A stretch of 64,000 nucleotides of DNA. Origin: Ehretia macrophylla. Its lineage: Eukaryota > Streptophyta > Magnoliopsida > Boraginales > Ehretiaceae. Below are positions 13,151-57,090 of this stretch, one piece after another. Position 1 is the first letter of the stretch. Every line of letters begins with the position of its first letter. The notes beneath the pieces were generated by a model that was given only the letters and a program-made list of their open reading frames with translations, was not told where the DNA came from and did no database searches. The stretch is from assembly GCA_037974665.1 (NCBI GenBank), contig CM075773.1, positions 30,886,853-30,950,852 on the forward strand. The letters are read 5' to 3'. The position numbers were made by a program, and so were the translations under genes.

Positions 13151-13159
13151 GCTGCGTAA

Positions 13160-34547: not shown

Positions 34548-34552
34548 CTGTG
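34548..34552. repeat. Target-site duplication, left of LTR 2 (diverged)
   Basis: 'ctgtg' before TGTAACG; the right-hand counterpart is 'ttgta' at 37705-37709. Both occupy the same five positions of the monomer (between 'ggtatg' and 'cgccgcg'). Confidence 0.55.
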
Positions 34553-35239
34553 TGTAACGCCCCAAGCTGACTTAAGGAGGCTAGACTAGGGTATAACCTA
34601 ATTCATTTATGCTTTTTCACATTCTTAGCCTTTTTGTTATGATTTAATGCTTAACGTTGGCCTAGAACTCCAAAAGTTTTTCCGAAAAACCGGCAGCATG
34701 ACGGCTATATTTAGGACCTTTGGTTTGACCTAATCTTCTAAAACAACTCAAAACCTTTAATCATTGATTTAATTATAACTAAAATTTCCTATTTTGTTAT
34801 CAATAGATATGCCTACTAATTTATCTCGATAGTCTCGTTTGATTGACAAGCCTAGCATGATAACTATGTCCCGTTTATTTGCCAGTTCCTATTATGCAAG
34901 TACCTATTATCCTTTAGCTTACAATGAGTACCTAAGTGAAATTAGATAAAGTTAACTTGTTTGATTCTTCACCTAGTGGTTTAAACGCCTACGATAACTA
35001 CTAACCAAGATAATGAAAGCAAATAACCAATAAAAAGTTCGTCCGGCTATAATCAGTACAAGCCATAAATTAGGCCCAAATTACACCGGGGTCATTTACC
35101 TCAACAAAATGAACAGTTGCAATCAAACACAACATCCAAATAGCAACTACTTTCAGACAAAACACAAAAGCACGTAGTCACTCCAAGGAATCATCAACAA
35201 GCACATTCTCCTCGGGTACCTATTCCAAATTTGCTTCAC

Positions 35240-35406
35240 CTGTGACAAAAAGAGGGTGAGTCCTTATGAACTCAGCGAGGGGGAACGAGAGATAACTTTT
35301 TAAAAACTCGTTTCCGGTTAATCTTACGAAAAAACCCTTTTTCAAAACGTGTCATATGAAATAAGCAAGTTCATAACATAATATAAATATAAATAAACAC
35401 ATTTAC
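35240..35406 (-). other. Intron-like GT...AG segment in LTR 2
   Basis: On the minus strand a donor GTAAAT and an acceptor 'ttttgtcacag' bound 167 nt, at the place of the segments in LTRs 1, 4 and 5. Confidence 0.35.
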
Positions 35407-36817
35407 CACTTTTTCCTCTCTGAGGTGTTCTAGGAAACAAGCGACAATACTTAAATACATAGTAAAAGTATATGGCGAGTTTTTGCTCTCAATTCATTTC
35501 CAATAACTGTTGTTGCGGCCGACTTCAAATCATCCACTTATCACACCAAATGGGTGTACTCCGGATGTACCCCAAAATCCTACGACCCAACTCTCCGAGC
35601 AAGTGTAGCTCCCAAGCGATAGAGGGAATTGGACCATGGTAATCACGGTACCACTGGCAAGCCCGATGCCGCCTGGCGTGCGTGAAACGCTACCATGCCA
35701 AAATGAAAGGTTGCAACCTTGTATGCAATGCACATGTATGCTATTTAACATTTCACATTGGGAGGTCAACAAAGTAGGTTGTCTCCAAGCAAGTATATGA
35801 TCACATTTTGACATATTGGCACATAAGGCATTGTAAGAACATGTAATCATTTCATATATCAATTTGAAAGCAATTAAATTTCCACGGGCAGCCAAGTAAT
35901 CATGTTCAAATAATCCATAAAATGTCTTTTAACAATTCACATTAGGAGGACAACAAAATAGGTTGCCTTCGAGCAATTATAAGATCACATATTGACAAGT
36001 AAACGAACGAGGCATGCTTAACACGAATTTTCACTTTGTAAAACACATAGAGTTATATGAACATTAAACGGACAGCCATGTAACACATGTAAATCAAGTC
36101 ATATAACTCATTTCGGGGTTCACGTATCGAGTATTAAGATCATACAAGCATGCAACGATGTTTACATGAGACCGGGTCCAAGGTGAATTTACTTATCACA
36201 TGTAATCATTGGGAATCATATTTAGAGTTATAAAAATAATTCCGGGTAGCCCATTAACATTCCTCAACATCAATTTATAATTCACACAAGAGTGGTATAT
36301 GACTTGGGAGTCTACGGGGCCATTATGGTTTACAAGGCCGTGCTCGGGGTTGGTTTTGTTTGCTAAGCACCACAAGTAGCACTTAAACCATTTCAAGCAT
36401 ACTTAACATTTATTAGGCAGCCTACTAACCACACAATTGAACGCATTTAGCCATAGGATCATCACTTAACAAATTTCATAAGCAATAGGGCCATTCCGTG
36501 CTTACACAGGCGGTTAAGCAAACCATTCATCAATTAGTGATCCCAAGTCATACATCAATCAAATTAAGCAACCTCAACCAGCCACAACAGTCCACACAAC
36601 ATCTAAGTGCCACAATTCCAAGCATTCAATACCACAAGAGAAGTTACAATGTGTTTCAAAGCATATCACTAAACAAAACCTCACTGCAATGGTCTGTTTT
36701 CTCACATTCGATTAGACAAGCAAAAAAATCTCCAATTTCAGTGAACAAAATGTCAAATTAAATCTTAATGAGTGATTTAAGTCTAGGAACAAACCTCGCA
36801 TCATTTGGAGTTTGGAT

Positions 36818-39800
36818 GTGTGAGATGTTTTTGATGTAAAATCTGAAATTTTAATTGTATTTGAATGCCTTGGTCAAAAATGAGGGCTAGGGTAGTGTGT
36901 GGTGTGTATTTTTTTATGCATTCTTGTGCTTTGTGAGGAATATTGAGTGTTTAAAATATGATTGTTTTTGTTTTGTCTATCCTAGGTAGCATGGTGTCTT
37001 GTGTTGTCATGGGAATGTTAGGAAATTAGGGAATCTAGGTAGAATAAAATATAGGAATATTTGTTGATGAGTTTGAATTATGAATAGAATAATAGATAGT
37101 GAGAAATGTAGGAATAGTTTAGTGTTATTTTATTGTTAGTGGAGTTTGTAGAGAATTTGAATTAGGAATATAATATTAGTTAGTGGATTGTGTTGGATTA
37201 TTTTATAGTCTAGATCTTTGTGTAGGATTCTTTATTGGTTAGCGTGCGGGCACGCTTTCCTAAGTCTAGGGCACGCACTACGAGACATGGACAAAAAATC
37301 AATACGGGGCACGAATTATGCGGTAGACACGAACTACGAGATAAGGCACGTACTTCAAGATAAATGCACGGATTCCAATGCAAATGCATGCAACCCTAGG
37401 TGAATGACGTAAACCAATACAAGACACATAATTTAATGCAATGTACGTAAATCGAGGTACGACTCTTAAACCTAGGTTAGGGCACGCAGTTCAAGGTTAG
37501 TGTACACAAATCGAGGTATCACATGTAAATCAAAGTCATGGCACATAAGTCGAGAATTAGGGCACACAATTCTGGGTCAAGGCACGTATGACGAGGCATG
37601 CACAAAAACCAAGATAGGGCACACAATCCAAGACCGGTCATACAGTTCTGGGTCTAAGGCAAGCAAATTGAGGTAAGACATGTTATTCAGGGTCGGACCT
37701 CACATTGTATGCCGCGTAACTCCTTACGGATCAAAAGTTATGGGCACCGGGGCGACGGATATCTGGTCATAAGCCCCACACCCTCTGTTTGTGGGCCCAG
37801 CCTCTACGTGAAGTGAAGTTGTCTTGCCTAAGGTGTCGTGTGATTCGGTAATAGAAATGTGATGGATTAAGTTGTCGTCCTTTTCGCGGCTCGCAACGTA
37901 CGATCCGAGACCGAAAAACATCGTAAAAGAATAAATGTGTCCCAAAACTTATGAAAACATTCAATTTTGGGCTCCTAAAATAGGCGCAGCCGAGCAGGCT
38001 TGATGCCCCCATCGTAGAACTCTCGAAGAGCTTTCCAAGGGTATGTTATGCGCCGCATAACTCCTTACGGATCAAAAGTTATGGGCACCGGAGCGACAGA
38101 GACCTGGTCCAAAGCCCCATGCCCTCGGTTTGCGGGCCCAGCCTCTATGTGGAGTGAAGTTGTCTTGCCCAAGGTGCTGTGGGATTCGGTAACAGAAATA
38201 TGATGGATTAGGTTTTCGTCCTTATCGCGGCTCACGACGTACGAACCGGGATAAAAAAACAGCGCAAAACAAGAAAAGTGTCCCGAAACTGATGAAAACC
38301 TTCGATTTTGGGCTCCGAAAACAGGCGCAGCCGAACATGCTTGGTGGCCCCGTCAAAGAGCTCTCAGAGAGTTTTCCAACGGTATGCTGTGTGCAGCGTG
38401 ACTCCTTACAGATCAAAAGTTATGGGTACCGGAGCAACGGATAGCTTGTCACAAACCCCTGGCCCTCAATTTGGGGGCCTAGCCTCTACGTGAAGTGAAG
38501 TTGTCTTGCTCAAGGTGCCATGGGATTCGGTAATAGAAATATGATGGATTAGGTTATCGTCATTTTCGCGGCTCACGACATACGATCCGAGACGAAAAAA
38601 TAGCACAAAAGAAGAATATTGTCCCAAAATTGATGAAAACGTTCAATTTTGGGCTCAAAAAATAGATACAGCAATGTAGGCTTGGTGCCCCCGTCGTAGA
38701 GCTCTTGTAGAGCTTTCCAACAGTATACTGTGCACCGTGTAACTCCTTACGGATCAAAAGTTATGGGCACCGAAATGACGGATACCTGGTTATAAGCCTC
38801 ACACCCTCGGTTTGACGACCTAGCTTCTATGTACAGTGAAGTTTTCTTGCCGAAGGTACCATGGGCTTCGGTAATCAAAATGTGATGGATTAGGTTGTCG
38901 TCCTTTTTGCGGCTCACGACGTACGATCCGTGACGGAAAAACAGCGCAAAAGAAGAAAAGACCCCCGAAACTAATGAAAATGTTCAATTTTGGGCTCCGA
39001 AAATTGGTGCAGCCAAGCAGGCTTGCTACCCTCGTCGTAGAGCTCTCGGAGAGCTTTCCAACGGTATGCTGTACGCTGCGTAACTCCTTATGGATCAAAA
39101 GTTATGGGCACTGGAGCGACGGATACCTGGTCACAAGCCCCAAGCCCTCAGTTTGAGGGCCCAGCTTCTACGTGAAGTGAAGCTATCTTGCCCAAGGTGC
39201 TGTTTGATTCGACAATAGAAATGTGATAGATTAGGTTGTCGTCCTTTTCGCGGCTCACGACGTACGGTCCGGGACGAAAAAACTGCGCAAAAGAAGATAA
39301 GTGTCCTAAAACAGATGAAATTGTTCCATTTTTGGCCCCGAAAATAGGCGCAGTTGAGTAAGCTTGTTATCCCTGTCGTAGAGCTCTCAGAGTGCTTTCC
39401 AACGGTATGCTGTGCGCCGCATAACTCCTTACGAGTCAAACGTTATAGGCACCAAGAGCGACGGATACCTGGTCACAAGCCCCACACCCTCTGTTTGCGG
39501 GCCCAGCCTCTACGTGAAGTGAAGTTGTCTTGTCCAAGGTACCGTGTGATTCATTAATAGAAATGTGATGGATTAGGTTGTCATCCTCTTCGTGCCCCAC
39601 GACATACGATCCGGGACGGAAAAACAGCGCAAAAGTACAAAAGTGTCGCGAAACTGATGAAAATGTTCGATTTTGGGCTCCAAAAACAGACGCAATTGAG
39701 CAGGCTAGGCACCACCATCGTAGAGCTCTCAGATTCCTTTCCAACGACACGTTGTGCGCCACGTAACCCCTTACAGATCAAAAGTTATGGGTACCGGAGC

Positions 39801-41810
39801 GACGGATACCTGGTCACATGCCCCACGCCCTCGATTTGTGGGCCCAGCTTCTACGTGCAATGAAGGTGTCTTGCCCAAGATGCCGTGGGATTCGGTAATA
39901 GAAATGTGATAGATTAGGTTGTCATCCTTTTCGCGGCTCACGACGTACGATTTGGGACAGAAAAATAGCACAAAAGAAGAAAAGTGTCTTAAAACTAATG
40001 AAAATGTTTGATTTTGGGCCCCAAAAATAGGCGCAGCCGAGCAGGATTGCTACCCCCATTGTAAAGCTCTCAGAGATCTTTCCAATGGTAAGCTATGCAC
40101 CATGTAACTCCTTACGGATCAAAAGTTATGGGCACCGGAGCGACGGATACCTGGTCACAAGCCCCACGCCCTTGGTTTTAGGGCCCAGCCTTTACGTGAA
40201 GTGAAGTTGTCTTGTCCAAGGTGCCGTGGGATTTGGTAATAAAAATGTGATGGATTATGTTGTTGTCCTTTTCGTGGCTCACGACGTACGATCCAGGATG
40301 AAAAAACAGCGCAAAAGAAGAAAAGTGTCCCAAAACTGAAGAACGTTCGAATTTGGGCTCAAAAAATAGGTGCAGCCAATTAGGCTTGGTGTCCCCGTCG
40401 TAGAGCTCTCGGAGTACTTTTCAACAGTATGTTGTGCGCCACGTAACTCCTTATGGATCAAAAGTTATAGGCACCGAAGCGACGGATACCTGGTCACAAG
40501 CCTCACGCCCTCGGTTTGAGGGCCCAGCCTCTATGTTCAGTGAAATTTTCTTGCCCAAGGTACCGTGGGATTCGATAATAAAAATGTGATGGATTAGGTT
40601 GTCGTCCTTTTCGTGGCTCACGACTTACTAACCGAGACAGAAAAACAGCGCAAAAGAAGAAAAGTGTCCTAAAACTGATGAAAATGTTCAATTTTGGGCT
40701 ATGAAAACAGTTGCAGCCGAGCAAGCTTTCTGACCTCGTCGTAGAGCTCTCGGAGAGCTTTCCAACGGTATGTTGTGAGCCGCGTAACTCCTTACAGATC
40801 AAAAGTTATGGGCACCGGAGCGACGGATACCTGGTCACAAGCCCCACGCCCTCGGTTTGAGGGCCCAGCCTCTACGTGAAGTGAAGTTGTCTTGCCCAAG
40901 GTGCCGTGGGATTCGACAATTGAAATGTGATAGTTTAGGTTGCCGTCCTTTTTGCGGCTCAAGACGTACGATCCGGGACAGAAAAACAGCGCAAAAGAAG
41001 AAAAGTTTCCTAAAACTAATGAAAACGTTCGATTTTGGACTCTAAAAATAGGCGCAGCCGAGTAGGCTTGCTACCCCTATCATAGAGCTCTCGGAGAGCT
41101 TTCGAACGGTATGTTGTGCGCCGCATAACTCTTTACGGATCAAAAGTTATGGGCACTGGAGCGACGGTGACCTAGTCACAAGCCCCATGCCCTCGGTTTG
41201 CGGGCCCAGCCTCTACGCAAAGCGAAGTTGTCTTGCCCAAGGTGCCATGTGATTCAGTAATAGAAATGTGATGGATTAGGTTGTCATCCTTTTCGCGGCT
41301 CACTTCATACGATCCGGGATCGAAAAACAGCGCAAAAGAAGAAAAGTGTCCCGAAACTGATGACAACGTTCGATTTTGGGCTCGAAAAATAGGTTCCGCC
41401 AAGTAGGCTTGGTACCCCAGTCGTAGAGCTCTCAGAGTGCTTTTCAACAGTATGCTGTGCGCTGCGTAACTCCTTACGGATCAAAAGTTATGGGCACCAA
41501 AGTGACGGATACTTGGTCACAAGCCTTACGCCCTCGATTTGAGGGCCTAGCCTCTATGTGCAGTGAAGTTTTCTTGCCCAAGGTGCCATGGGATTCGGTA
41601 ATAGAAATGTGATGGATTATGTTGTCGTCCTTTTCGTGGCTCACGACTTACGAACCGGGACGGAAAAATAGCGCAATAGAAGAAAAGTGTCCCAAAACTG
41701 ATGAAAATGTTCAATTTTAGGCTCTGAAAACAAGTGCAGCCGAGCAGGCTTGCTGACCCCGCCGTAGAGCTCTGGGAGAGCTTTCCAACGGTATGTTGTG
41801 CACCGCGTAA
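36818..41810 (+). repeat. Compound LTR-plus-satellite unit, copy A
   Basis: The right part of LTR 2 plus the twelve following monomers recurs as copy B (42701-47322). The offset is exactly 5,867 bp at the LTR edge (37704/43571) and at a private variant 'gcaccgaaatgacgg' (38767/44634), 5,854 bp after a short deletion in B, and 5,512 bp (one monomer fewer) after B's recombinant monomer at 45620-45960. Order-specific marks: 'gggctcctaaaatagg'; 'tcagagagttttcc' with 'tgtgcagcgtg'; 'gctcttgtagagc'; 'ctgtttgattcgacaat'; 'cagatgaaattgtt'; the 'cacgttgtgcgccacg' end; 'ttcagtgaaattttcttgcc'; 'gattcgacaat' with 'ctcaaga'; 'accaaagtgacgg'. Confidence 0.88.
37241..37704 (-). repeat. Degenerate ~20-bp minisatellite, LTR 2
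   Basis: About 22 units on the plus strand in the form 'gcacg-aa-tcgaggt-ag', 17-22 bp each (for example 37304, 37328, 37346, 37439, 37475, 37549 and 37608). Units differ by up to half their bases but keep the leading 'gcac/gcacg' and the following 'aa.tc.aggt'. The tract occupies the outer end of the LTR, and its reverse complement corresponds to 17586-17815. Confidence 0.78.
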
Positions 41811-42112
41811 ATCCTTACAGATCAAAAGTTATGAGCAGCTGGAGCGTTGGATACCTGGTCACAAGCCCTATGCCTCGGTTTGAGGGCCCAGACTCTATGT
41901 GAAGTGAAGTTCTCTTGCCCAAGGTGCCGTGGGATTTGGTAATAAAAATGTGATGAATTAGGTTGTCGTCTTTTTCGAGGCTCACGACATACGATCCGAG
42001 TTGAAAAAATCGCGCAAAAGAAGAAAAGTACCTTAAAACTAATGAAAATGTTCAATTTTGGGCTCCAAAAATAGGCATAACCGAGCAGGCTTGCTACCTC
42101 TGACGTAGAGCT
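37705..42112 (+). repeat. 340-bp satellite array, block 3 (about 13 monomers)
   Basis: Anchors are 37720, 38061, 38402, 38743, 39084, 39425, 39768, 40108, 40448, 40788, 41129, 41470 and 41811, all steps 340-343 bp. The array enters directly from the LTR 2 end with 'ttgtatgccgcg' (the monomer's 'ttgtgcgccgcg' position) and stops mid-monomer at 'gtagagct', where a 29-bp inverted satellite piece and the truncated LTR 3 follow. Confidence 0.97.
41856..41884 (+). repeat. Source arm of a satellite inverted repeat
   Basis: Satellite 'tggtcacaagccct...' to 'cggtttgag', carrying a private 1-nt loss ('gcctcgg' for 'gccctcgg'). The inverted piece at 42113-42141 has the same loss, so this monomer is its likely template. 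Confidence 0.7.
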
Positions 42113-42141
42113 CTCAAACCGAGGTGTGGGGCTTGTGACCA
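42113..42141 (-). repeat. 29-bp inverted satellite fragment at a truncation junction
   Basis: The forward monomer runs to 'gtagagct' and then continues as the reverse complement of the satellite's 'tggtcacaagcccc...cggtttgag' part, ending exactly where LTR 3 begins. It shares a 1-nt deletion with 41856-41884, 228 bp upstream. It is the only satellite piece I found in the opposite orientation. Confidence 0.85.
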
Positions 42142-42650
42142 TCTTCAAGTTCTAGCCAAAAATCTAGCCATGCATGATCATATAAGCTCATATAAACACA
42201 TATACAACAACTACAGAGGTAAATATAGTCATATGAAGGCATGCATGTGATTTTTGAAAGCTTTTAAAAGAGTTTAACCCTCACCTCTTTGAAGATTTAG
42301 CAAATGAGCACAAATGCTCTTCAAAATGCACAAAGGGAGCTTCTTCCTTGCTTTGGCCGAGAGATGGCTTGTCTTCCCTTAATTTCTAACTTAGTTAGCA
42401 TGTGAGGAAGGTGTGCATGTGTGTGAAACCAAAAGAAATGGAAGAAAACTATCAAGACTTACCTTAGGCCGAAAATGATGAGTTTTGTGAGCTTGTGTGT
42501 GTTTTTGAGCTATTTGCCTTGCTTGTGCTTGCTATGGACAAGCTTGGGAGAGTCTTAGAGAGTTGTTAGGAGTCTTGAATGCTCAAGGGGCTGCCATGGT
42601 CGAAAATGAGAGAGAATGAGAGAGTTTGTGAGGAAAAGTGAAGTTTTAAT

Positions 42651-42673
42651 GTGTGTGTGTGTGTGTGTGTGTG
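42651..42673. repeat. (GT)n microsatellite in LTR 3
   Basis: A perfect 23-nt GT run. LTR 4 has a shorter run at 52251-52265. LTR 2 lost the region in its internal deletion. Confidence 0.95.
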
Positions 42674-43108
42674 CTCAGTTTTGGTGAGTTGAGAGAGCAT
42701 GTGTGAGATGTTTTTGATGTAAAATCTGAATTTTAATTGTATTTGGATGCCTTGGTCGAAAATGAGGGCTAGGGTAGTGTGTGGTGTGTATTTTTTTATG
42801 CATTCTTGTGCTTTGTGAGGAATATTGAGTGTTTAAAATATGATTGTTTTTGTTTTGTCTATCCTAGGTAGCATGGTGTCTTGTGTTGTCATAGGAATGT
42901 TGGAAATTAGGGAATCTAGGTAGAATAAAATATAAGAATGTTTGTTGATGAGTTTGAATTATGAATTGGGAAATGTAGGAATAGTTTAGTGTTATTTTAT
43001 TGTTAGTGGAGTTTGTAGAGAATTTGAATTAGGAATATAATAGTAGTTAGTGGATTGTGTAGGATTATTTTATAGTCTAGAGCTTTGTGTAGGATTCTTT
43101 ATTGGTTA

Positions 43109-43571
43109 GCGTGCGGGCACGCTTTTCTAGGTCTAGGGCACGCACTACGAGACATGCACAAAAAATCAATATGGGCCACGAATTATGAGGTAGACACGAA
43201 CTACGAGATAAGGCACGTACTTCAAGATAAATGCACGGATTCCAATGCAAATGCACGCAACCGTAGGTGAATGCACGTAAACCAATTCAAGACACGTAAT
43301 TTAATGTAATGCACGTAAATCGAGGTACAACTCTTAAACTTAGGTTAGGGCACGCAGTTCAAGGTTAGTGTACACAAATCGAAGTATCACATGTAAATCA
43401 AAGTCATGGCACGTAAGTCGAGAATTAGGGCATACAATTCTAGGTCAAGGCATGTATGACGAGGCATGCACGAAAACCAAGATAGGGCACGCAATCCAAA
43501 TCGGTCATACAGTTCTGGGTCTAAGGCAAGCAAATCGAGGTGAGACATGTTATTCGGGGTCGGACCTCACA
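43109..43571 (-). repeat. Degenerate ~20-bp minisatellite, LTR 3
   Basis: Same unit order as in LTR 2 (37241-37704), with scattered point changes. Confidence 0.78.
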
Positions 43572-44672
43572 TTGTATGCTGTGTAACTCCTTACGGATCA
43601 AAAGTTATGGGCACCGAAGCGACGGATACCAGGTCATAAGACCCATGCCCTCGGTTTGTAGGCCCAAGCTCTACGTGAAGTGAAGTTGTCTTTCCCAAAG
43701 TGCAGTGGGATTCGGCAATAGAAATGTGATGGATTAGGTTGTCGTCCTTTTCGCGGCTCACGACGTACAATCCGGGACGAAAAAACAATGCAAAAGAAGA
43801 AAAGTGTCCCGAAACTGATGAAAACATTCAATTTTGGGCTCCTAAAATAGGCGCAGCAGAGTATGCTTGCTGCCCACGTCGTAGAGATCTCAGAGAGCTT
43901 TCCAACGGTATGCTGTGCGCCACATAACTCCTTACGGATCAAAAGTTATAGGCACCAGAGAGACGGATACCTGGTCACAAACCCCATGCCCTCGGTTTGT
44001 GGGCCCATCCTCTATGTGAAGTGAAGTTGTCTTGCCCAAGGTGCCATAGGATTCGGTAATAGAAATGTGATGGATTAGGTAGTCGTCCTTTTCGCGGCTC
44101 ATGACGTACGATTCGGGACAGAAAAACAGCGCAAAAGAAGAAAAATGTTCCGAAACATATGAAAACATTCGATTTTAGACTCCAAAAAAAGGCACAGCCT
44201 AGCAGGCTTGGTGCCCCCGTCTTAGAGCTCTCAGAGAGTTTTCCAAAGATATGTTGTGTGCAGTGTAACTCCTTACAGATCAAAAGTTATGGGCACGGGA
44301 ACGACGGATACCTAGTCACAAGTCCCATGCCCTCTGTTTGTGGGCCCAGCCTCTACATGAAGTGAAGTTGTCTTTCCCAAGGTGTCGTGGGATTCGGTAA
44401 TAGAAATATGGTGGATTAGGTTGTCATCCTTTTCGCAGCTCCCGACGTACGATTCGGGATTGAAAAACAGCGCAAAAGAAGAAAAGTGTCCCAAAACGGA
44501 TGAGAACGTTTGATTTTGGGCTCAGAAAATAGGTGCATCCATGTAGGCTTGGTGCCCCCGTCGTAGAGCTCTTGTAGAGCATTCCAACAGTATGCTGTAC
44601 GTCACGTAACTCCTTACGGATCAAAAGTTATGGGCACCGAAATGACGGATACCTAGTCACAAGCCTCATACC

Positions 44673-44715
44673 CTCGGTTTGACGGCCTAGCCTCGGTTTG
44701 ATGGCCTAGCCTCCA
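44673..44715 (+). repeat. Local duplication plus deletion in one monomer
   Basis: 'ctcggtttga-ggcctagcc' occurs twice in succession, and about 32 bp that should follow ('tatgtgcagtgaag' through 'cccaagg') are missing. Net monomer length is 328 bp. Confidence 0.8.
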
Positions 44716-47700
44716 TGGGCTTCGGTAATAAAAATGTCATGGATTAGATTGTCGTCCTTTTCGCGGCTCACGACTTACGAACCGAGATGGAAAAACAGCG
44801 CAAAAGAAGAAAAGTGTCCCAAAACTGATGAAAATGTTCAATTTTGAGCTCTGAAAATAGATGCAGCCTAGCTGGCTTGCTGACCCCGTCGTAGAGCTCT
44901 CAGAGAGCTTTCCAATGGTATATTGTGCGCCGCGTAACTCCATACGGATCAAAAATTATGGGCACCAGAGCGATGGATACCTGGTTAGAAGCCCCACGCC
45001 CTCGGTTTGGGGGCCCAGCCTCTACGTGAAGTGAAGCTGCATTGCCCAAGGTGCTGTTTGATTCGACAATATAAATGTGATAGATTAGGTTGTCTTCCTT
45101 TTCGCGCCTCACGACGTACGATCTGGGACGGAAAAACTATGCAAAAGAAGATAAGTGTCCTCAAACAGATGAAATTGTTCAATTTTTGGCCCCAAAAATT
45201 GGCGCAGCCGAGTAAGCTTCCTATCCCCGTCGTAGAGCTCTCGGAGTGCTTTCCAACGGTATGCTGTGCACTGCGTCACTCCTTATGCATCAAAAGTTAT
45301 GGGCACCAGAGCGACGTATACCTGGCCACAAGCCCCACGCCCTCTGTTTGCGGGCCCAGCCTCTACGTGAAGTGAAGGTGTCTTGCCCAAGGTGCCGTGT
45401 GATTCGGTAATAGAAATATTATGGATTAGGTTGTCGTCCTTTTTGCGGCTCACGTTGTCTGATCTGGGATGAAAAAATAGAAAAAAAGAAGAAAACTGGC
45501 CCGAAACTGATGAAAATGTTCGATTTTGGGCTACAAAAACAAACGCAACCAAGCAGGCTAGGTCCCTCCATCGTCGAGCTATGAGAGTGCTTTCCAACGG
45601 CACGTTGTGCACCACGTAACTCCTTACTGATCAAAAGTTATGAGCACCAGAGCGATAGATACCTAGTCACAAGCCCCACGCCCTCGGTTTGCGGGCCCAA
45701 CCTCTACGTGAAGTGAAGTTTTCTTGCCCAAGATGCCGTGGGATTCGGTAATAGAAATGTGATAGATTAGGTTGTCGTCCTTTTCGCAGCTCACGACGTA
45801 CGATCCGGGACAGAAAAACAGCGCAAAAGAAGAAAAGTGTCCCAAAACTTATGAAAATGTTTGATTTTGAGCTCGAAAAATAGGTGCAGCCAAGTAGGCT
45901 GGTGCCCCCGTCGTAGAGCTCTCGGAGTGCTTTTCAACAGTATGTTGTGCGCCGCGTAACTCTTTACGGATCAAAAGTTATAGGCACCGAAGCGACGGAT
46001 ACCTGGTCACAAGCCTCACGCCCTCGGTTTGAGAACCTAGCCTCTATGTGCAGTGAAATTTTCTTGCCCAAGGTGCCGTGGGATTCGATAATAAAAATGT
46101 GATGGATTAGGTTGTCGTCCTTTTCGTGGCTCACGAAGTATGAACCGGGACGGAAAAACAGAGCAAAAGAAGAAAAGTGTCCCAAAACTGATGAAAATGT
46201 TCTATTTTGCGCTCTGAAAATAGGCGCAGCCGAGCAGGCTTCTGACCTCGTCGTAGAGCTCTCGAAGAGCTTTCCAACAGTGTGTTGTGCACCGCGTAAC
46301 TCCTTACGGATCAAAATTTATGGGCACCGGAGCGAAGGATACCTGGTCACAAACCCCACGCCTTCGGTTTGAGGGCCAAGCCTCTACGTGATGTGATGTT
46401 GTCTTGCCCAAGGTGCCATGTGATTCGACAATAGAAATGTGATAGATTAGGTTGTCGTCCTTTTCGCGGCTCAAGATGTATGATCCGGGATAGAAAAACA
46501 GCACAAAAGAAGAAAAGTTTATTAAAACTATTGAAAATGTTCTATTTTGGGCCCTAAAAATAGGGGCAGCCGAGCAGGCTTGCTTCCCCCGTCGTAGAGC
46601 TCTCGGAGAGCTTTCCAACAGTAAGTTGTGCACCGTATATGTCCTTACGGATCAAAAGTTATGGGCACCGGAGCGACGGAGACCTGGTCACATTCCCTAC
46701 GCCCTCGGTTTGAGGGCCCAGCCTCTATGTGAAATGAAGTGGTCTTGCCCAAGGTATCATGGGATTCGGTAATAAAAATGTGATGGATTAGGTTGTCGTC
46801 TTTTTCGCGGCTCGCGACATACGATCCGGGATGGAAAAACAGCGCAATAGAAGAAAAGTATCCCAAAACTGATGAGAACGTTCGATTTTGGGCTCGAAAA
46901 ATAGGTGCAACCAAGTAGGCTTGGTATCCCCGTCATAGAGCTCTCAGAGTGCTTTTTAACAGTATGCTGTGCGCCGCGTAACTACTTACGGATCAAAAGT
47001 TATGGGCACCAAAGTGACGGATACCTGGTCCCAAGCCCCACGCCCGCGGTTTGAGGGCCCAGCCTCTATGTGCAGTGAAGTTTTCTTGCCCAAGGTGCTG
47101 TGGGATTCGGTAATAAAAATGTGATGAATTAGGTTGTCGTCTTTTTCGCGGCTCACGACGTACGATCAGGGACTGAAAAACTACACAAATGAAGAGTAGT
47201 GTCCTGAAACAGATGAAAATGTTAAATTTTTTGCTCCGAAAATAGGTGTAACTGAGCAGGCTTGCTGCCCCCGTCGTAGAGCTCTCGGAGTGCTTTCCAA
47301 CGGTACGCTGTGCGCCGCGTAACTCCTTACGAATCAAAAGTTATGGGTGCCGGAGCGACGGATACCTGGTCAAAAGCCCCACGCCCTCGGTTTGGAGGCC
47401 CAACCTCTACGTGAAGTGAATTTGTCTTGCCCAAGGTGCCTTGGGATTCAGTAATAGAAATGTGATAGATTAGGTTGTCGTCCTTTTCGCGGTTCATGAC
47501 ATACGATCAGGGACGAAAAAACAACGCAAAAGAAGAAAAGTATCCCAAAACTGATGAAAATGTTCAATTTTGGGCTATGAAAATAGACGTAATCGAGCAG
47601 GCTAGATGCCCCCATCGTAGAGCTCTCGGATAGCTTTCCAATGGTATGCTGTGCGCCATGTAACTCCTTACGGATCAAAAGTTACGGGCACGGGAGAGAC

Positions 47701-49008
47701 GGATTCTTAGTCACAAGCCCAACGCCCTCGGTTTCCGGGCCCAGCCCCAACGTGAAGTGAAGTAGTCTTCCCAAGGTGTCGTGGGATTCGGTAATAGAAA
47801 TGTGATGGATTTGGTTGTCGTCCTTCTCGCGGCTCACGACGTACGAACCGGGACAAAAAAATAGCGCAAAAGAAGAAAAGTATTCCGAAACTGATGAAAA
47901 TGTTCAATTTTGGGCTCCAAAAATTGGCACAGCTGTGCAGGCTTGCTTCCTTCATCGTAGAGCTCTCGGGGAGCTTTCCAACGGTATGCTGTGCACCGCG
48001 CAACTCCTTACAGATCAAAAGTTATAGGCACCGGAGCGACAGATACCTGGTTACGAGCCCTATGCCCTTGGTTTGAGGGCCCAGCATCTACGTGAAGTGA
48101 AGTTGTCTTGCCCAAGGTGTCATGGGATTCGGTAATAAAAATGTGATAGATTAGGTTGTCGTCCTTTTCGCGGCTAACGACATACGATCCGGGACGGAAA
48201 AACAACTTAAAAGAATAAAAGTGTCCAAAAACTGATGAGAACGTTCGATTTTGGACTTGGAAAATAGGTGTAGCCAAGAAGGCTTGGTGCCCCATCGTAG
48301 AGCTCTCGGAGAGTTTTCCAACAGTATACTGTGTGCCGTGTAACTCCTTACAAATCAAAAGTTATGGGCACCGAAGCGACGGATACTTGGTCACAAGCCT
48401 CACGCCCTCGGTTTGAGGACCCACCCTCTATGTGCAGTAAAGTTTTCTTGCCCAAGGTGCCGTGGGATTCGGTAATAAAAATGTGATGAATTAGGTTGTC
48501 GTCCTTTTCGCGGCTCACGACTTACGAATCAGGATGGAAAAACAGCGCAAAAGAAGAAAAATATTCTAAAACTGATGAAAATATTCGATTTTGGCTCCAA
48601 AAACAGGCGTAACAGAGCAGGCTTGCTACCCCTGACGTAGAGCTCTTATAGAGCTTTCCAACGGTATGCTGTGTGACACGTAACTCCTTACGGATCAAAA
48701 GTTATGGGCACCGTAGCGACAGATACCTGGTTACAAGCCCCACCCCCTCTGTTTGTAGGCCCAGCCTCTACGTGAGTGAAGTTGAAATGCCCAAGGTGCC
48801 GTGTGATTCAGTAATAGAAATGTGATGGAATAGGTTTTCATCCTTTTCGCGGCTCACGACGTACGATCTGGGATGGAATAATTGCGTAAAAGAAGAAAAG
48901 TGTCACAAAATTTATGAAAATTTTCGATTTTGGGCTCCGAAAACAAGCTCGGCCGAGCAGGCTAGATGCCCCCATTGTAGAGCTCTCAAAGAGCTTTCCA
49001 ACGGTATG

Positions 49009-49013
49009 CAGTG
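49009..49013. repeat. Target-site duplication, left of LTR 4
   Basis: 'cagtg' immediately before TGTAACG; an exact second copy follows the element at 53145-53149. Confidence 0.9.
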
Positions 49014-49636
49014 TGTAACGCCCCAACCCAACCTAAGGAGGCTAGACTAGGGTATGACCTAATTCATTTATACTATTTCACAATCTTAGCCTTTTGTTAT
49101 GATTTAATGCTTAACGTTGGCCTAGAACTCTAAAAGTTTTTCTGAAAGACTAGCAACATGATGGCTATATTTAGGACCTTTGGTTTGACCTAATCTTCTA
49201 AAACACCTCAAAACCTTTAATCATTGATTCAATTCCAACTAAAATTTCCTATTTTGTTATCAATAGATATGCCTACTTATTTATCTCAATAGTCTCGCTT
49301 GATTGACAAGCCTAGCATGATAACTATGTCCCGTTTATTTGCCAGTTCCTATTATGCAAGTACCTATTATTCTTTAGCTTACAATGAGTACCTAAGTAAA
49401 ATTAGATAGAGTTAACTTGTTTGATTCTTCACCTAGTGGTTTAAACGCCTACGATAACTACTAACCAAGATAATGAAAGCAAACAACTAATAAAAAGTTC
49501 GTCCGGTTAAAATCAGTACAAGCCAAGAATTAGACCCAAATTACAACGGGGTCATTTACATCAACAAATAAACAGTTGCAATCAAACACAACATCCAAAT
49601 AGCAACTACTTTCAGATAGAGCACAAAAGCACGTAA

Positions 49637-49699
49637 TCACTCCAAGGAATCATCAACAAGCACATTATCCTCGGGTACCTTTTCCAAATCTGCTTCACC
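49637..49699 (-). other. Conserved 21-codon acidic frame, LTR 4
   Basis: On the minus strand from GGT to TGA, beginning GEAD and ending DDSLE. Same length and stop as in LTRs 1 and 5. Against LTR 5 my hand count of differences by codon position is about 4/5/5, which does not look like selection on protein. Against each other LTRs 1 and 5 give about 0/3/8, which does. Confidence 0.3.
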
Positions 49700-49862
49700 T
49701 GTGACAAAAAGAGGTGAGTCCTTATGAACTCAGTGAGGCGGAACGAGAGATAACGTTTTAAAAACTCGTTTCTGGTTAATCTTATGAAAAACCCTTTTTA
49801 AAACATGTCATATGAAATAAGCAAGTTCATAACATAATATAAATATAAATAAACACATTTAC
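49699..49862 (-). other. Intron-like GT...AG segment in LTR 4
   Basis: A donor 'gacag/gtaaatg' and an acceptor 'tttttgtcacag/gtgaag' on the minus strand bound 164 nt. The donor is the best match to the plant consensus of the four copies. Confidence 0.45.
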
Positions 49863-51319
49863 CTGTCTTTCCTCCCTGAGGTCCTCTAGGAACCAAGCAA
49901 GAGTACTTAAACACATAGTAAAAAGGATACGGTAAGCTTTTGCTCTCAATTCATTTCCAATAACAATTGTTGCGGCCGACTTCAAATCATCCACTTATCA
50001 CGCCAAATGGGTGTACTCCGGATGTACCCCAAAATCCTACAACCCAACTCTCCGAGCAAGTGTAGCCCCCAAGCAATAGAAGGAATTGGACCATGGTAGT
50101 CACGGTAGCACCGGCAAGCCCGATGCCGCCCGGCGTGTGTGAAACACTACCATGCCAAAATGAAAGGTTGCAACCTTGTATGCAATGCACATGTATGCTA
50201 TTTAACATTTCACATTGGGAGGCCAACAAAGTAGGTTGCCTCCGAGCAAGTATATGAACACATTTTGACATATTGGCACATAAGGCATTGTAAGAACATG
50301 TAATCATTTCATATATCAATTTGAAAGCAATTTAACTTCCACGGGCAGCCAAGTAATCATGTCTAAATAAGCCATAAAATGTCTTTTAACAATTCACATT
50401 AGGAGCACAACAAAATAGGTTGCCTTCGAGCAATTATAAGATCACATATTGACAAGTAACGAACGAGGCATGCTTAACACAAATTTTCACTTTGTAAAAC
50501 ACATAGAGTTATATGAACATTAAACGGGCAGCCATGTAACACATTTAAATCAAGTCATGTAATTCATTTCGGGGTTCACGTATCAAGTATTAAGATTATA
50601 CAAGCATGCAACGATGTTTACATGAGACCGGGTATAAGAAGAGTTTACTTATCAACATGTAATCATCGCGAATCATATTTAGAGTTATAAAAACAATTCT
50701 GAGTAGCCCATTAACATTCCTCGACATCAATTTATAATTCACACAAGAGTGGTCTATGACTTGGGAGTCTACGAGGCCATTAGGGTTTACAAGGCCATGC
50801 TCGGGGTTGGTTTTCTTTGCTAAGCACCACAAGTAACACTTAAACCGTTTCAAGCATACTTAACATTTATTAGGGAGCCTACTAACCACACAATTGAACG
50901 CATTTAGCCATAGGATCATCACTTAACAAATTTCATAAGCAATAGGGCCTTAATTCCGTGCTTACACATGCGGTTAAGCAAACCATTCATCAATTAGTGT
51001 TCCCAAGTCATACATCAATCAAATTAAGCAACCTCAACCAGCCACAACAGTCCACACAACATCTAAGTACCACAATTCCAAGCATTCAATACCACAAGAG
51101 AAGTTACAACATGTTTCAAAGCATATCACTAAACAAAACCTCACTCCAATGGTCTGTTTTCTCACATTCGATTAGACAAGCAACAAATCTCCAATTTCAG
51201 TGAACAAAATGTCAAATTAAATCTTAATGAGTGATTTAAGTCTAGGAACAAAACTCGCATCATTTGGAGTTCAGATTTGGGAGTTATGGCCAAAACCGTG
51301 AGACTACTCAAAACTGTCC

Positions 51320-51737
51320 AGTTTTAGACACATTACGAGTTTTGCTATTTTTGAGGGTCTTATAGTCAGAATTGGCTTTGGTCTATTTCTTACAAAAATG
51401 TCCAGAACTACAAAATCTAGCAACCTTCCAATTTTTATGCATTTTTACCAACATATACTAGGTCAAAAATGGTTCGTTCTACAAAGTCAGTAATCTGCCA
51501 GAAACCTATTTCATATTTCCAGATTTTCAGATTTAGACACCTTTTGATATTTTGACCATTTTGGAGGCTTAGAGTCAGAATTTTCCTTGGCCTATTTCTA
51601 CAAAAAATGCTCAGAACTAGTAAAAACAGTCACCTACCAATTTTCACGCATTTTCAACATCATTTACTAGGCCAAATGCACTTTGCTCTACCAAATCAGA
51701 AATTTGCCAACTACACGATTTTACTTATCTTCAAGTT
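51320..51737 (-). repeat. Internal tandem duplication of ~209 bp in LTR 4
   Basis: Two diverged copies start at 51320 ('agttttagacac') and 51529 ('agatttagacac'). Each contains 'agtcagaatt', 'ggcctatttct' or a variant, 'cagaact', 'catttttac/cattttcaac' and a final 'atctgcc/atttgcc'. LTR 5 has the same duplication with a period of about 219 bp; LTR 1 has one copy. Confidence 0.75.
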
Positions 51738-52700
51738 CTAGCCAAAAATCTAGCCATGCATGGTCATATAAGCTCATATACACACATATACAACAACCAC
51801 AAAGGTAAATATAGTCATATGAAGGCATGCATATGATTTTTGAAAGCTTTTAAAAGAGTTTAATCCTCACCTCTTTGAAGATTTAGCAAATGAGCACAAA
51901 TGCTCTTCAAAATGCACAAAGGAAGCTTCTTCCTTGCTTTGGCCGAGAGATGGCTTGTCTTCCCTTAATTTCTAACTTAGTTAGCATGTGAGGAAGGTGT
52001 TCATGTGTGTGAAACCAAAAGAAATGGAAGAAAACTATCAAGACTTACCTTAGCCCAAAAATGATGAGTTTTGTGAGCATGTGTGCATTTTTGAGCTAGT
52101 TGCCTTGCTTGTCCTTGCTATGGCCTAGCTTGGGAGAGTCGTAGAGAGTTTTTAGGAGTCTTGAATGCTCAAGGGGCTGCCATGGTCGAAAATGAGAGAG
52201 AAGGAGAGAGAATGAGAGAGTTTGTGAGGAAAAGTGAAGTTTTAGAGTATGTGTGTGTGTGTGTGCTCGGTTTTGGTGAGTTGAGAGAGCATGGGTGAGA
52301 TGTTTTTGATGTAAAATCTGAATTTTAATTGTATTTGGATGCCTTGGTCGAAAATGAGGGCTAGGGTAGTGTGTGGTGTGTATTTTTTTATGCATTCTTG
52401 TGCTTTGTGAGGAATATTGAGTGTTTAAAATATGATTGTTTTTGTTTTGTCTATCCTAGGTAGCATGGTGTCTTGTGTTGTCATAGGAATGTTGGAAATT
52501 AGGGAATCTAGGTAGAATAAAATATAAGAATGTTTGTTGATGAGTTTGAATTATGAATTGGGAAATGTAGGAATAGTTTAGTGTTATTTTATTGTTAGTG
52601 GAGTTTGTAGAGATTTTGAATTAGGAATATAATATTAGTTAGTGGATTGTGTAGGATTATTTTATAGTCTAGAGCTTTGTGGAGGATTCTTTATTGGTTG

Positions 52701-53144
52701 GCGTGTGGGCACGCTTTCCTAGGTCTAGGGCACGTACTATGAGACATGCACAGAAATCAATACGGGACACGAATCACGAGATAGACACGAACTACGAGGT
52801 AAGTCACGTACTTCAAGATAAATGCACAGATTTCAATACAAATGCACACAACCCTAGGTGAATGCACGTAAACCAATGCAAGGCACGTAAATCGAGGTAC
52901 AACTCTTAAACCTAGGTTAGGACAAGCAATTCAAGGTTAGTGCACAAAAATCAAGGTATCACATGTAAATCAAAGTCAGGGCACGTAAGTCGAGAATTAA
53001 GGCACACAATTCTATGTCAAGACACGTATGACGAGGCATGCACAAAAACCAAGACAGGGCATGTAATCCAAGGTTGGTCATACAGTTTTGGGTCTAAGGC
53101 AAGCAAATCTAGGTAAGACACGTTATTCGGGGTCGGGCCTCACA
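52701..53144 (-). repeat. Degenerate ~20-bp minisatellite, LTR 4
   Basis: Same tract as in LTRs 2 and 3, one or two units shorter (the 'taatttaatgcaatg' unit near 52880 is missing). Confidence 0.78.
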
Positions 53145-53149
53145 CAGTG
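53145..53149. repeat. Target-site duplication, right of LTR 4
   Basis: Exact 'cagtg', followed by the monomer's 'tgccgcgtaactcc'. Confidence 0.9.
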
Positions 53150-53919
53150 TGCCGCGTAACTCCTTACGGATCAAAAGTTATGGGCACCAAAGCGACGGAT
53201 ACTTGGTCACAAGCCCCACGACCTCTGTTTGCAGGGCCCAGCCTCTACGTGAAGTGAAGTTGTCTTACCAAAGGTGCCGTGCGATTCGGAAATAGAAATG
53301 TGATGGATTAGGTTGTCGTCCTTTTCGCGGCTCACGACGTACGATCCGGGACAGAAAAACAGTGCGAAAGATGAAAAGTGTCCCAAAACTGATGAAAACA
53401 TTCGATTTTGGGCTCCTAAAATAGGCGCAGCCTGAGCTCTCGGAGAGCTTTCCAACGGTATGTTGTGCGCCTTGTAACTTCCTACTTATCAAAAGTTATA
53501 GGCACCGGAGCGATGGATACCTGGTCACAAGCCCCATGCCCTCGGTTTGCGGGCCTATCCTCTATGTGAAGTGAAGCTGTCTTGCCTAAGGTATCGTGAG
53601 ATTCGGTAATAGAAATGTGATGGATTAGGTTGTCGTCCTTTTCGCGACTCACGACGTACGATACGGGACAGAAAAACAGCACAAAAGAAGAAAAGTGTCC
53701 TGAAACATATGAAAACGTTTGATTTTGGGCTCCAAAAAAAGGCGCAACCAAGCAGGCTGGGGGCCCCCGTCTTACAGCTCTCAGAGAGTTTTCCAACGGT
53801 ATGCTGTGCACCAAGTAACTCCTTAAGTATCAAAAGTTATAGGCACCGGAGCGACGGATACCTGGTCACATGCCCCACGCCCTCGGTTTGCTGTCCCAGC
53901 CTCTACGTGAAGTGAAGTT

Positions 53920-53924
53920 GTCTT
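53920..53924. repeat. Target-site duplication, left of LTR 5
   Basis: 'gtctt' before TGTCACG; exact copy at 57086-57090. Confidence 0.9.
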
Positions 53925-54556
53925 TGTCACGCCCCAACCCGGCCTATAAAGGTTAGACTAGGGTGTGATCTAACGTTCAAGTCATATCACACACTTAACC
54001 ATTTTTGAAGATTTAACACTTATCGTTTTAGTCTAAACTCTAAAATTTTCCGGAAAACCGGCAGCATAACGGCTGTAATTGGACTCTTTGGTTTGGCCTA
54101 ATTCTCTAAACGCCTCAAAATTTTCTAATCTCAAATTTCATTTCCAACTAGGATTACTATTTAACATCAATTGAAATGCCTATTGGTTGTCTCGATGTCT
54201 CGTTTGATTTATAACCTAGCACGATACTATGTCTCGTTCGTTTGTTTATCCTCGTTACAAAAGTACCTGTTGATCCTAGGTTAATAGCGAGTACTTGTTT
54301 AAGATTGGATAGGTTCATTTACTTAGTCCTTAACTAATACGTCATAACCTATGATAGATACTAGCGGTAATAATAGCAAACGATCATAGTGGTGTCTAGT
54401 GTCTGTCTAGCAATATCAGTACAAACCAAAATTAGACCCCAAATTACAACGAGGGTCTTTTACATTACAAATAACAAGCAACATAAAGGAAATAGTCTTC
54501 AAGTAGCATAGAGTTCACAAGTAGCCACAATCACGCAAAGCACACAAGATAGGCAA

Positions 54557-54619
54557 TCACTCCAAGGATTCATCGTTAGGCACACCGTCCTCAGGTACCT
54601 GTTCTGGATCTTCTTCACC
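54557..54619 (-). other. Conserved 21-codon acidic frame, LTR 5
   Basis: Minus strand, beginning GEED and ending DESLE, then TGA. Same 63-nt length as in LTRs 1, 2 and 4. Confidence 0.3.
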
Positions 54620-54766
54620 TGAGATGATAAAAAAGGGTAAGTCCTTATGAACTCAGCGAGGGGAAAATGAGAAATAGGTTTTGAAACTCATTTTCCGGTT
54701 CAACTTATGAAAATCCTTTTGCAAGCATGAATATAATAATAATAAAAAGTAAAGGAACAAAAATAC
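54619..54766 (-). other. Intron-like GT...AG segment in LTR 5
   Basis: Donor GTATTT and acceptor 'atcatctcag' on the minus strand, 148 nt. The segment is shorter than in the other copies but its ends are in register. Confidence 0.38.
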
Positions 54767-54809
54767 CAGTCTCTCCTCCCCGAGGTTCTCTAGGAACCAA
54801 GCGAGAGTA

Positions 54810-54815
54810 CTTATA
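54810..54815 (-). promoter_or_regulatory. TATA-like box in LTR 5
   Basis: The minus strand reads TATAAG in 'gtgtataagtactctcgctt', the same block as in LTR 1 (20070-20075). Confidence 0.4.
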
Positions 54816-56733
54816 CACATAGTAAAAAGGATACGGTGAGCTTTTGCTCTCAGTTCATTTCCAGAATCAGTTGTTGCGACCGACTTCAAATCATCCCCAT
54901 AACACGCCAAGTGGGTGTACTCCGAATGTACCCCGAAATCCTACGACCTAATTCCCCGAGGAAGTCTAGCCCCCCAGCGAGAGAGGGAATGGGACCATGG
55001 TAGTCACGGGTGCACCGGCAAGCCCGATGCCTCCCGTTGTGCGTGATCGCTACCATGCCGACATGAAAGGTTGCAAACTTGTATGAAATGCACAATTATG
55101 ACATTTAAAATATCACATTAGGAGGACAACAAATTAGGTTACCTCCGGATAGTCATAAGATTGCACATTGACAAGTAAACAAGCGAGGCATGGATAGATA
55201 GGTAATTTCACTTGAAAAGCTCATGGAGTTATATGAACATTAAATGGACAGCCATGTAATGCACATAAATCAAGTCATATAACTCAATTCAAAGTCCATG
55301 TAATCAAATAATAAGATTATATAACATGCAACAACATCGACGTGGGCTCGGATGCAAGAAGAGCCTATTTGTCAACATGCAATAATCAAAATCACATTTA
55401 GGACTATAAGGGCTTCTACGGGCAGCCTACTAAGCATATAATTCCACACAATGTCCAAATGATCAACACTTAGCAAGACTACCTAGTCATTAGGGTTTCC
55501 ATTTCGTGCTTACCCGTGTGATTAAACCTCAAGTCAACCCAAAATCATCCTCAAGCCATACATCAATTAATTCAAACATCCCCAAGTATTCAAAACAGTC
55601 CACACAACAACCCAAAGCCACAATCCCAAGCATTTAATTCAACCAGAGAAGTTACAACAATTTTACCAAGCATATAACTAAGTGAAATCCTTACTGCAAT
55701 AGGCTGTATTATCACAATCATTAAGATAAGAAAACAATATCCAATTCCAGTGAATAAGATTTCAAATTAAATCTTAAGAAGTGAACTAAAATCAGAAACA
55801 AACCTTGCATCATTTGGAGTTCGGGATCATTAGTTATAGCCGAAACAGTGGGATAGCACAAAACTGTCCAGATTTGCATACATTTCGATAATTGACGTTT
55901 TTGAGATCCTTAGGGTCAGATTCAGCCTTAGCCCATTTCTGACAAAAATGTCCAGAACTGAGAAATATATCAGTATACCAAATTTCATGCATTTTGGACA
56001 TCATTTACTAAGTCAAATCTGGTTCGTTCTACAAGGTCAGTGCATCTGCCAAAACCTGCTTCATTTTTCCAGATTTCCAGATTTGGACACATTTTAATGA
56101 TTTGCCATTTTGAGGACCTTAGATTCAAAATTAGCTTCGGCCTATTTATGCAAAAAATGTTCAAAACTGGCAATACTAGTCACCTACAAATTTTCATGCA
56201 TTTTTAACATCATTTGCCTAGCTAAACTTACCTCAAAACCACTGGTCAGAGAGCTGTCACATAATCCAACTTCACCTATCACCACTTTCAAGCCAAGATC
56301 TTGCCATGCATGGTTGAAGAAGCTTATGAATGAACATATAACCCAAGTACAGAAGCAAAGACATACATTTATGAGAATGCATGTGAATTTTTGAAGGATT
56401 TTCAAAAGGTTTTAGCCCTCACCTTAGCAATCAACCAAGAAGATGCACAAAACTTGTTGAAGCACAATTTTCTTCTTCTCCTTTGCCTAGCCGAGATTCC
56501 AACTAGATTTTCTCTATTTTCCTAGCTTAGTGACCAAGCTCTTAGTACATGCATGAGGTTAGAACAAGAAGAAAAGAAATGGAAGCTTAAAAACTCACCT
56601 AGGGCCGAAATGAAGACTCTATGTGCTTGTATGCATCTTTTGAGCTAACTACTTGCTTTCCTTTGCTTGGGCTTGCCTTGAATGGCCTTAGGATGATGAA
56701 GATGAGTTGTGAAGTGAAGAGAATCAGCCAAGG

Positions 56734-56800
56734 CCGAGAGGGAGAGAGAAAAATGAGAGGGAGAGAGAGAAATGTGAGAGGAAAATGAGAGAATGAAAAG
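56734..56800 (+). repeat. Purine-rich low-complexity tract in LTR 5
   Basis: Repeats of gagaggga and gagagaaa on the plus strand. It corresponds to the pyrimidine tract of LTR 1 in inverse orientation. Confidence 0.8.
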
Positions 56801-57085: not shown

Positions 57086-57090
57086 GTCTT
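57086..57090. repeat. Target-site duplication, right of LTR 5
   Basis: Exact 'gtctt', followed by 'tcccaaggtgcc' in monomer phase. Confidence 0.9.

Follow-up and report, generated by a model that had tools for sequence, protein, structure and literature searches.

Evidence for the local duplication of a long terminal repeat together with its flanking satellite in a 341-bp satellite array of Ehretia macrophylla

The DNA stretch analysed here (the window) covers 64,000 bp of Ehretia macrophylla contig C10 (30886853-30950852) and consists of a direct array of a 341-bp satellite, which, as identified with an nhmmer profile and Tandem Repeats Finder (TRF), is interrupted by five non-satellite blocks, A to E (17.6-21.0, 34.6-37.7, 42.1-43.6, 49.0-53.1 and 53.9-57.1 kb). 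The five blocks form a single sequence family and are long terminal repeats (LTRs) of a non-autonomous retrotransposon, B to E lying on the minus and A on the plus strand; for B, C and D this strand, taken in the retrotransposon sense, corrects the earlier assignment. The evidence supports the view that B and C, with the satellite on the right of each, are two copies of a single duplicated LTR-plus-satellite segment. For the window as a whole, the best explanation, held with good confidence, is that LTR and satellite were spread together early on and that a later, one-step tandem duplication gave rise to B and C. An earlier reading of the sequence (the original prediction) had proposed that a solo LTR was amplified with the satellite as one compound higher-order unit; its co-duplication is retained for B and C, its solo LTRs and its amplified unit are not. 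As satellite arrays turn over fast, their history is hard to read, and an LTR which diverges more slowly than the surrounding monomers marks the copied segments, the size of the copied piece and the way in which a joint was formed. A transposon remnant thus serves as a natural tag for rearrangements of a satellite array, and similar events are known from plant centromeres.

The right edge of the LTR, previously located at three positions, was found to be exact at each of them (37704 for B, 43571 for C and 53144 for D). The additional claim that the monomers follow in the same order right of each copy holds for B and C, whose right-hand satellite is colinear over about 4.4 kb with one break, but D shares this order with C for two monomers only, the common flank being shorter than 1 kb. 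Between the monomers of B and C the offset amounts to 5867-5868, then to 5860-5853 and then to 5512-5513, in agreement with the predicted shift to 5,854 and 5,512 bp; a further step to 6533 at the last monomer (41913/48446) was absent from that claim, and the monomer at 41572-41910 in the flank of B is without a colinear partner in the flank of C. The rare satellite variant CGAAATGACGG is present at 38771 and 44638, and its offset of 5867 equals that of the LTR edges, just as had been predicted. Within its exact 28-base context this variant occurs at 10 places of the genome (1.58 Gb on 20 contigs), and on contig C10 at B and C only. Likewise, among 25 zero-mismatch matches to the right joint the flank letters TTGTATGC were identified at B and C only, and two listed one-mismatch matches read TTGTA followed by other letters.

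In terms of raw identity, the B-C path ranges from 0.826 to 0.914, with 0.836 at the break, the background being 0.824 (standard deviation 0.026), and the B-C diagonal reaches 0.855 as compared to a median of 0.826 across 28 shifts. As the diagonal stands out only modestly by this measure, a rarity-weighted score was adopted, in which the relatedness of two monomers is rated by the rarity of the bases they share (inter-region background -22.3, standard deviation 6.0, 28,443 pairs), together with inter-region and same-site controls. The right-flank same-site control comprised 20 loci plus B, C, D and C8 (contig C8, where related copies lie), whereby overlaps that are too short drop out and pair counts consequently vary by monomer; both sets of control runs omit comparisons of B, C, D and C8 flanks with one another. 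The first eight monomers of B and C scored 5.9, -8.8, -8.8, 14.3, -5.8, 33.1, -6.7 and -7.9, giving a mean of 1.9, and the run of four monomers at the 5512 offset averaged 12.1. With pairs within contig C13 excluded, the B-C mean was reached by none of the 21,263 eight-monomer control runs, and by 33 of 23,046 when a real duplication pair on C13 was retained. The original prediction had named flanks no more alike than random monomers as the outcome that would speak against co-amplification, and for B and C the rarity-weighted scores lie above that level. Among same-site insertion pairs, B-C ranked 13 of 276 at monomer 0, 12 of 253 at monomer 1, 16 of 276 at monomer 2 and 2 of 231 at monomer 3. 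Shared downstream order as an argument against independent insertion, the stronger argument of that prediction, stands.

On a 0.85-kb part of the LTR, B and C are sisters (support 100/98, identity 0.961), differing at 34 of 871 sites (3.9%). Judged from the assembled sequence, B and C are unlikely to be the product of an assembly error, as they diverge by 3.9% and possess different joints. What speaks against a simple duplication is the divergence of the satellite: counted, as for the LTR, on stretches with matched ends, the B-C flank differs at 341 of 2,486 sites (13.7%) in the first eight monomers and at 135 of 1,358 sites (9.9%) in the run at the 5512 offset; against unrelated parts of the array, the difference was 16.8% in one comparison and 17.2% in another. 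Outside CG and CHG positions the flank still differs at 174 of 1,875 (9.3%) and 71 of 1,036 sites (6.9%), versus 19 of 788 (2.4%) in the LTR. Since much of the flank is thereby close to unrelated, monomer exchange must be invoked, and the excess divergence of the satellite indeed points to such exchange after the duplication. In the duplication pair on C13 satellites diverge faster too (satellite identity 0.909 and 0.940 versus 0.965-0.971 for the LTR). As regards the input to the trees, three extra LTR 3' ends (L074-L076) match D at 70-75%, two of which joined as long branches, the third being too short; the second C8 copy is represented in the 5' tree alone, its length being insufficient for the 3' tree, and L004 was dropped as duplicate of a C17 row.

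B and C had been described as solo LTRs, but neither is intact: B lacks about 1 kb and C keeps a fragment of 1.43 kb, so that of these copies it is D which is found in the solo state, i.e., as a complete LTR without interior. D runs from TGTAACG to CCTCACA and hence has TG...CA ends, E is flanked on both sides by GTCTT yet ends in TA, and the target duplications of B and A are imperfect. The shared parts of B, C and D are 92-94% alike, except for the last 0.9 kb of B and D (89%, gaps counted). A and E are 83% alike across 2.1 kb and mostly 72-82% alike to B and D in separate blocks, with about 73-76% for A versus B and D where the block is longest. At other places in the genome, D-type blocks are paired: LTRs of 3.95-4.2 kb enclose an interior of about 2.9 kb (C5, C13 and two C17 loci). 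A purine-rich tract and the motif TGGTATCAGAGC, which we take to be the initiator-methionine primer site, delimit the interior of the C5 copy, and similar letters reside beside the C13 and C17 LTRs. In the one copy whose interior was examined for coding capacity, the longest stop-to-stop frame has 79 amino acids and none of four frames matched Pfam at E 0.1. Large retrotransposon derivatives (LARDs) are non-autonomous LTR retrotransposons with long LTRs and a non-coding interior that are mobilised by a coding partner; both the long LTRs and the non-coding interior were found in the present family. At C17:13.98-13.99 Mb (L051-L052) at least three LTRs of the family stand in tandem at a spacing of about 6.9 kb, and LTRs there group with those of another C17 element 0.29 Mb away and not with their own partner.

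Copy D probably, though not surely, descends from the same insertion as B and C, and the sequence may be read such that one insertion was duplicated early, yielding D and the C8 copies, and again later, yielding B and C. The rarity-weighted scores of C and D are -10.2, 4.0, -1.6 and -20.1 for monomers 0 to 3, and among 354 candidates C is the best partner of D monomer 1 and the second best of D monomer 2. Among same-site pairs C-D ranks 113 of 276, 2 of 253, 3 of 276 and 113 of 231 at these monomers, and the p value for a run of three is 0.0007 for C-D, 0.0026 for B-D and 0.00015 for D and C8. From these ranks and p values the link to D seems real, yet short. On a 2.3-kb part of the LTR, a clade supported by 100/99 unites B and D with the two C8 copies (near 7.27 and 7.29 Mb) at identities of 0.944-0.957, its inner branches lacking resolution. 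All four, being the clade copies that keep the left edge, have it at the identical base and in the same orientation. Their relatives on C13 and C17, by contrast, sit at TAACT or other sites, and the C5 copy is inserted the other way round.

Several observations count against a common origin of D with B and C. D, C8 and B/C form a star, and on the 0.85-kb part their clade is supported by 89/86 only; the D-B identity of 0.944 lies within the range seen for the two LTRs of single elements (0.913-0.955); the C-D score of 4.0 falls short of 7.3, the median of the best scores that monomers of the window reach; D monomer 0 is unremarkable (rank 118 of 332); and the resemblance of the left flanks of B and D is partly that of a common monomer subtype. 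Although this left-flank similarity is the best of 151 for D and ranks 15 among 465 left-flank pairs (31 same-site loci), it was dismissed as strong evidence of kinship and given little weight, because the subtype occurs elsewhere too. Of the alternatives it is the independent insertion of D alone at a preferred base, with duplication linking B and C only, that fares best, and we regard it as doubtful but quite conceivable: the star topology, the CAGTG on both sides of D as opposed to CTGTG and TTGTA at B, the unremarkable monomer 0 and the end of C-D colinearity after monomer 2 all agree with it, while the high ranks at monomers 1 and 2, the run-of-three p value of C-D, the common left edge of the clade and the different sites or orientation used by the related C13, C17 and C5 copies do not.

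How the duplication of B and C arose may be read from its joints. On the left side of C, satellite extends to 42115 and is followed by 26 bp of inverted satellite, after which the interior of the LTR begins. This filler joint, searched with up to 3 mismatches, occurs once in the 1.58-Gb genome, and so does the joint of the deletion of about 1 kb in B. Consequently the segment is counted as present twice only, and the amplified higher-order unit of the original prediction is not borne out: B and C are two copies, and the flank shared by D is too short to make it a third repeat of a satellite higher-order unit. What was found is an adjacent segmental duplication, with direct copies side by side and a non-homologous joint at 42116-42141. 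Sequence resembling the filler is present in direct orientation at 41856 (3 mismatches in 29), and this copy may possibly have served as local template, as its similarity suggests. The making of the joint of C may be ascribed to end joining, and a single tandem duplication event, some 6 kb in size and brought about by end joining or template switching, fits better than a higher-order unit formed by unequal crossing-over. The deletion in B is placed after the duplication, because C keeps LTR sequence that is absent from B.

The original prediction had further assumed that the LTR entered once and was then multiplied by unequal exchange of a unit of at least 5 kb. Herein the duplicated B/C segment stands, and D is probably of the same insertion, but exchange is not the simplest route, because C starts inside the LTR beside satellite with inverted filler, which a one-step homologous exchange would not give. 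It is nevertheless conceivable that unequal homologous exchange multiplied a compound unit of left flank, whole LTR and right flank, and that the left part of C was deleted later on, leaving the filler; this appears unlikely. Monomer exchange is evident in the array, for instance in a 1464-bp higher-order repeat at 3760-7467, the offset between B and C changes by one and by three monomers, and the pair on C13 has flanks duplicated on both sides at a distance of 3.5 Mb, all of which such exchange would accommodate. Yet it requires an extra event for C and hence two steps, exchange plus deletion, where a tandem duplication with a templated end-joining scar requires one; moreover, as would be expected of a one-step tandem duplication, the right flank of B is still related to that of C in the final monomer ahead of C (41913/48446), and neither the C joint nor the B deletion joint was found in a third copy in the genome. 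The B/C case thus points to non-homologous tandem duplication in a kind of array usually thought to be shaped by unequal crossing-over.

For the tandem duplication, the following course of events is suggested. An element of a family with preferred integration bases in the 341-bp monomer would have landed at a CTGTG site and would then have been reduced to a solo LTR. Old duplications of this LTR with its flanking satellite may have spread copies, namely the ancestor of B and C as well as D within the array, and probably also to contig C8. Later, a single tandem duplication of the LTR end and the satellite to its right would have produced B and C, the new joint left of C fusing satellite to LTR interior via the inverted filler in a manner resembling end joining with template switching. 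B would then have lost about 1 kb within its LTR, and patchy monomer exchange would have blurred the satellite common to B and C. At some stage E inserted into the flank of D.

Table 1. Satellite stretches, LTR copies and further features of the window (positions count from the first base of the window)
Feature	Position	Strand	Basis and remarks
341-bp satellite array	1..17583	+	nhmmer profile and TRF
LTR copy A, solo, other subfamily, orientation opposite to B-E	17586..20975	+	right flank TAACT, left flank TAATG
341-bp satellite array, left flank of copy B	20976..34552	+	satellite profile
LTR copy B, about 1 kb absent at 36815-36824 compared with D	34553..37704	-	left flank CTGTG, right flank TTGTA
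Satellite right of B, colinear with that right of C apart from one break	37705..42115	+	monomer comparison
Rare satellite variant common to B and C flanks, B copy	38771..38781	+	monomer scoring, genome pattern search
Inverted satellite filler opening copy C	42116..42141	-	sequence and minus-strand profile match; joint unique in genome
LTR copy C, truncated fragment	42142..43571	-	matches D from about 51727 on; right flank TTGTA like B
Right satellite flank of C (related to flank of B until about 48651) and left flank of D	43572..49013	+	
Rare satellite variant common to B and C flanks, C copy, offset 5867	44638..44648	+	monomer scoring
LTR copy D, complete solo LTR	49014..53144	-	5-bp target duplication CAGTG on both sides
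Satellite right of D, akin to the flank of C in monomers 1 and 2	53145..53924	+	monomer scoring, controls
LTR copy E, solo, other subfamily, inside right flank of D, ends TA	53925..57085	-	target duplication GTCTT
341-bp satellite array resuming right flank of D past E	57086..64000	+	satellite profile

That the LTR edge recurs at one position of the monomer had been taken as a sign of single entry, which fails, as copies numbering in the hundreds, and of either orientation, use the same pentamer. For the left joint between satellite and LTR at B and D, 391 matches were obtained at up to 3 mismatches (control 0), the 100 matches listed being spread over 19 of the 20 contigs; the right joint gave 334 at up to 2 mismatches (control 2), and the opposite orientation at the CTGTG pentamer gave 682 at up to 3 mismatches (control 0). 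Exact joints within 30 bases after TTTCCAACGG number 345, and among 100 listed, 52 fall on gap 21, the TAACT phase, and 32 on gap 9, the CTGTG phase; of opposite-orientation joints at TTTCCAACGG there are 379, with 43 at gap 21 and 43 at gap 9 among 100 listed. Another stretch of the monomer carries 144 joints, which among the matches listed recur at GTCTT, TGTCT and AAGGT, and in a further stretch 44 of 73 joints reside at one position, CACGA. The left flanks of 30 same-site loci comprise two satellite types, the second accounting for 10 of them, and over these 30 loci LTR similarity and flank similarity are uncorrelated (rho 0.05, p 0.27). From the hotspot counts, the two flank types and this null correlation it is concluded that many same-site copies are independent insertions; the common edge alone therefore says little, and because integration prefers few bases, LTRs that share a monomer position do not necessarily descend from a single insertion. 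That B, C and D are all independent insertions at a preferred monomer base, alike in their flanks by chance or local homogenization, is very improbable and for B and C largely rejected: the use of the CTGTG site in both orientations, the null correlation and the mere 12th to 16th rank of B-C at monomers 0 to 2 favour it, but the eight-monomer colinearity exceeds all 21,263 control runs, monomer 3 ranks second of 231, and the sister LTRs B and C have identical right-flank letters.

It is rather likely that the family integrates with near single-base precision at a few positions of the monomer (CTGTG, TAACT, GTCTT/TGTCT, AAGGT and CACGA, the first two in both orientations) on at least 19 of the 20 contigs, and that the resulting hundreds of LTRs are datable tags for duplication of arrays and interchromosomal exchange. 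In the literature searched, itself only part of the whole, no report of base-precise LTR hotspots in a satellite was found. Plant LTR elements have been described to show a weak preference for palindromes and an association with nucleosomes (PMC6911290). The neighbouring hotspots CTGTG, TAACT, GTCTT and AAGGT are 12 and 9 bp apart, a spacing that would suit one face of a positioned nucleosome. The second satellite type, of about 678 bp, contains positions 47-340 and 1-52 of the 341-bp monomer (L011-L014, L027, L032-L036, L069) and hosts the same LTR family, inserted at the identical base.

Both processes considered here, targeting and local co-duplication, are already known, and the present case joins them in one array. 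For the rice centromere, segmental duplication of retrotransposons and satellite was reportedly described by Ma and Jackson in 2006, and in Arabidopsis ATHILA copies are reported to have been duplicated along with the satellite array. Maize centromere 10 contains adjacent segmental duplications of retrotransposon pieces, one with a solo LTR, and satellite multimers, and a 22.7-kb duplication therein was attributed to alternative end joining at a 5-nt match (passages of PMC4806543). The likeness consists in the local tandem duplication of retrotransposon pieces and satellite, but the maize duplication spans 22.7 kb with nested CR elements and is dated to about 121,000 years, whereas here about 6 kb of LTR and satellite with 3.9% LTR divergence and an inverted filler are concerned. 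In Cuscuta europaea, insertions of the LINE (long interspersed nuclear element) L1-CS locate to two preferred monomer regions of the satellite CUS-TR24, whereby the authors weighed a compound unit against repeated targeting and favoured targeting (passages of PMC8091179). Common to both systems is a transposon lineage that recurs at preferred positions of a satellite monomer; CUS-TR24 was targeted by LINEs, whereas in the present array an LTR element with 5-bp target duplications and both orientations is found, and local co-duplication as well. ATHILA LTR elements invade the centromere satellites of Arabidopsis (Wlodzimierz et al. 2023, cited in PMC12477314) and are comparable as LTR elements within satellite arrays, albeit of a different family and likened without sequence comparison.

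A clearer example of co-duplication is provided by a segmental duplication on C13 with copies 3.5 Mb apart (L045-L048; 12.09-12.11 and 15.57-15.59 Mb), in which the LTR and both satellite flanks are colinear over 24 and 23 monomers with the mean identities given above, those of single monomers spanning 0.844 to 1.000. Same-site pairs with related flanks are also located on C16 (L065/L066) and C1 (L017/L020). In two pairs of same-site LTRs on different contigs, L055/L058 (C1, C6) and L054/L067 (C1, C19), the first 115 bp of the flank have many rare variants in common, whereas the monomer that follows does not figure among related pairs, which resembles the outcome of an exchange between chromosomes.

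Within the window, neither Rfam (gathering threshold) nor a tRNA scan gave a match. The array contains one true higher-order repeat, the 1464-bp unit mentioned above, which is present three times and includes a long monomer of about 444 bp in every copy; its monomer pairs are 0.89-0.97 alike, and a related piece is found at the start of the window (1-369). Recent short local duplications of monomers were identified at 22446-24150 and 9856-11554 (0.956 at 1365 bp and 0.91-0.935 at about 680 bp, respectively), and a short run of TTCTTTA-like repeats resides inside LTR copy A at 17938-17975.

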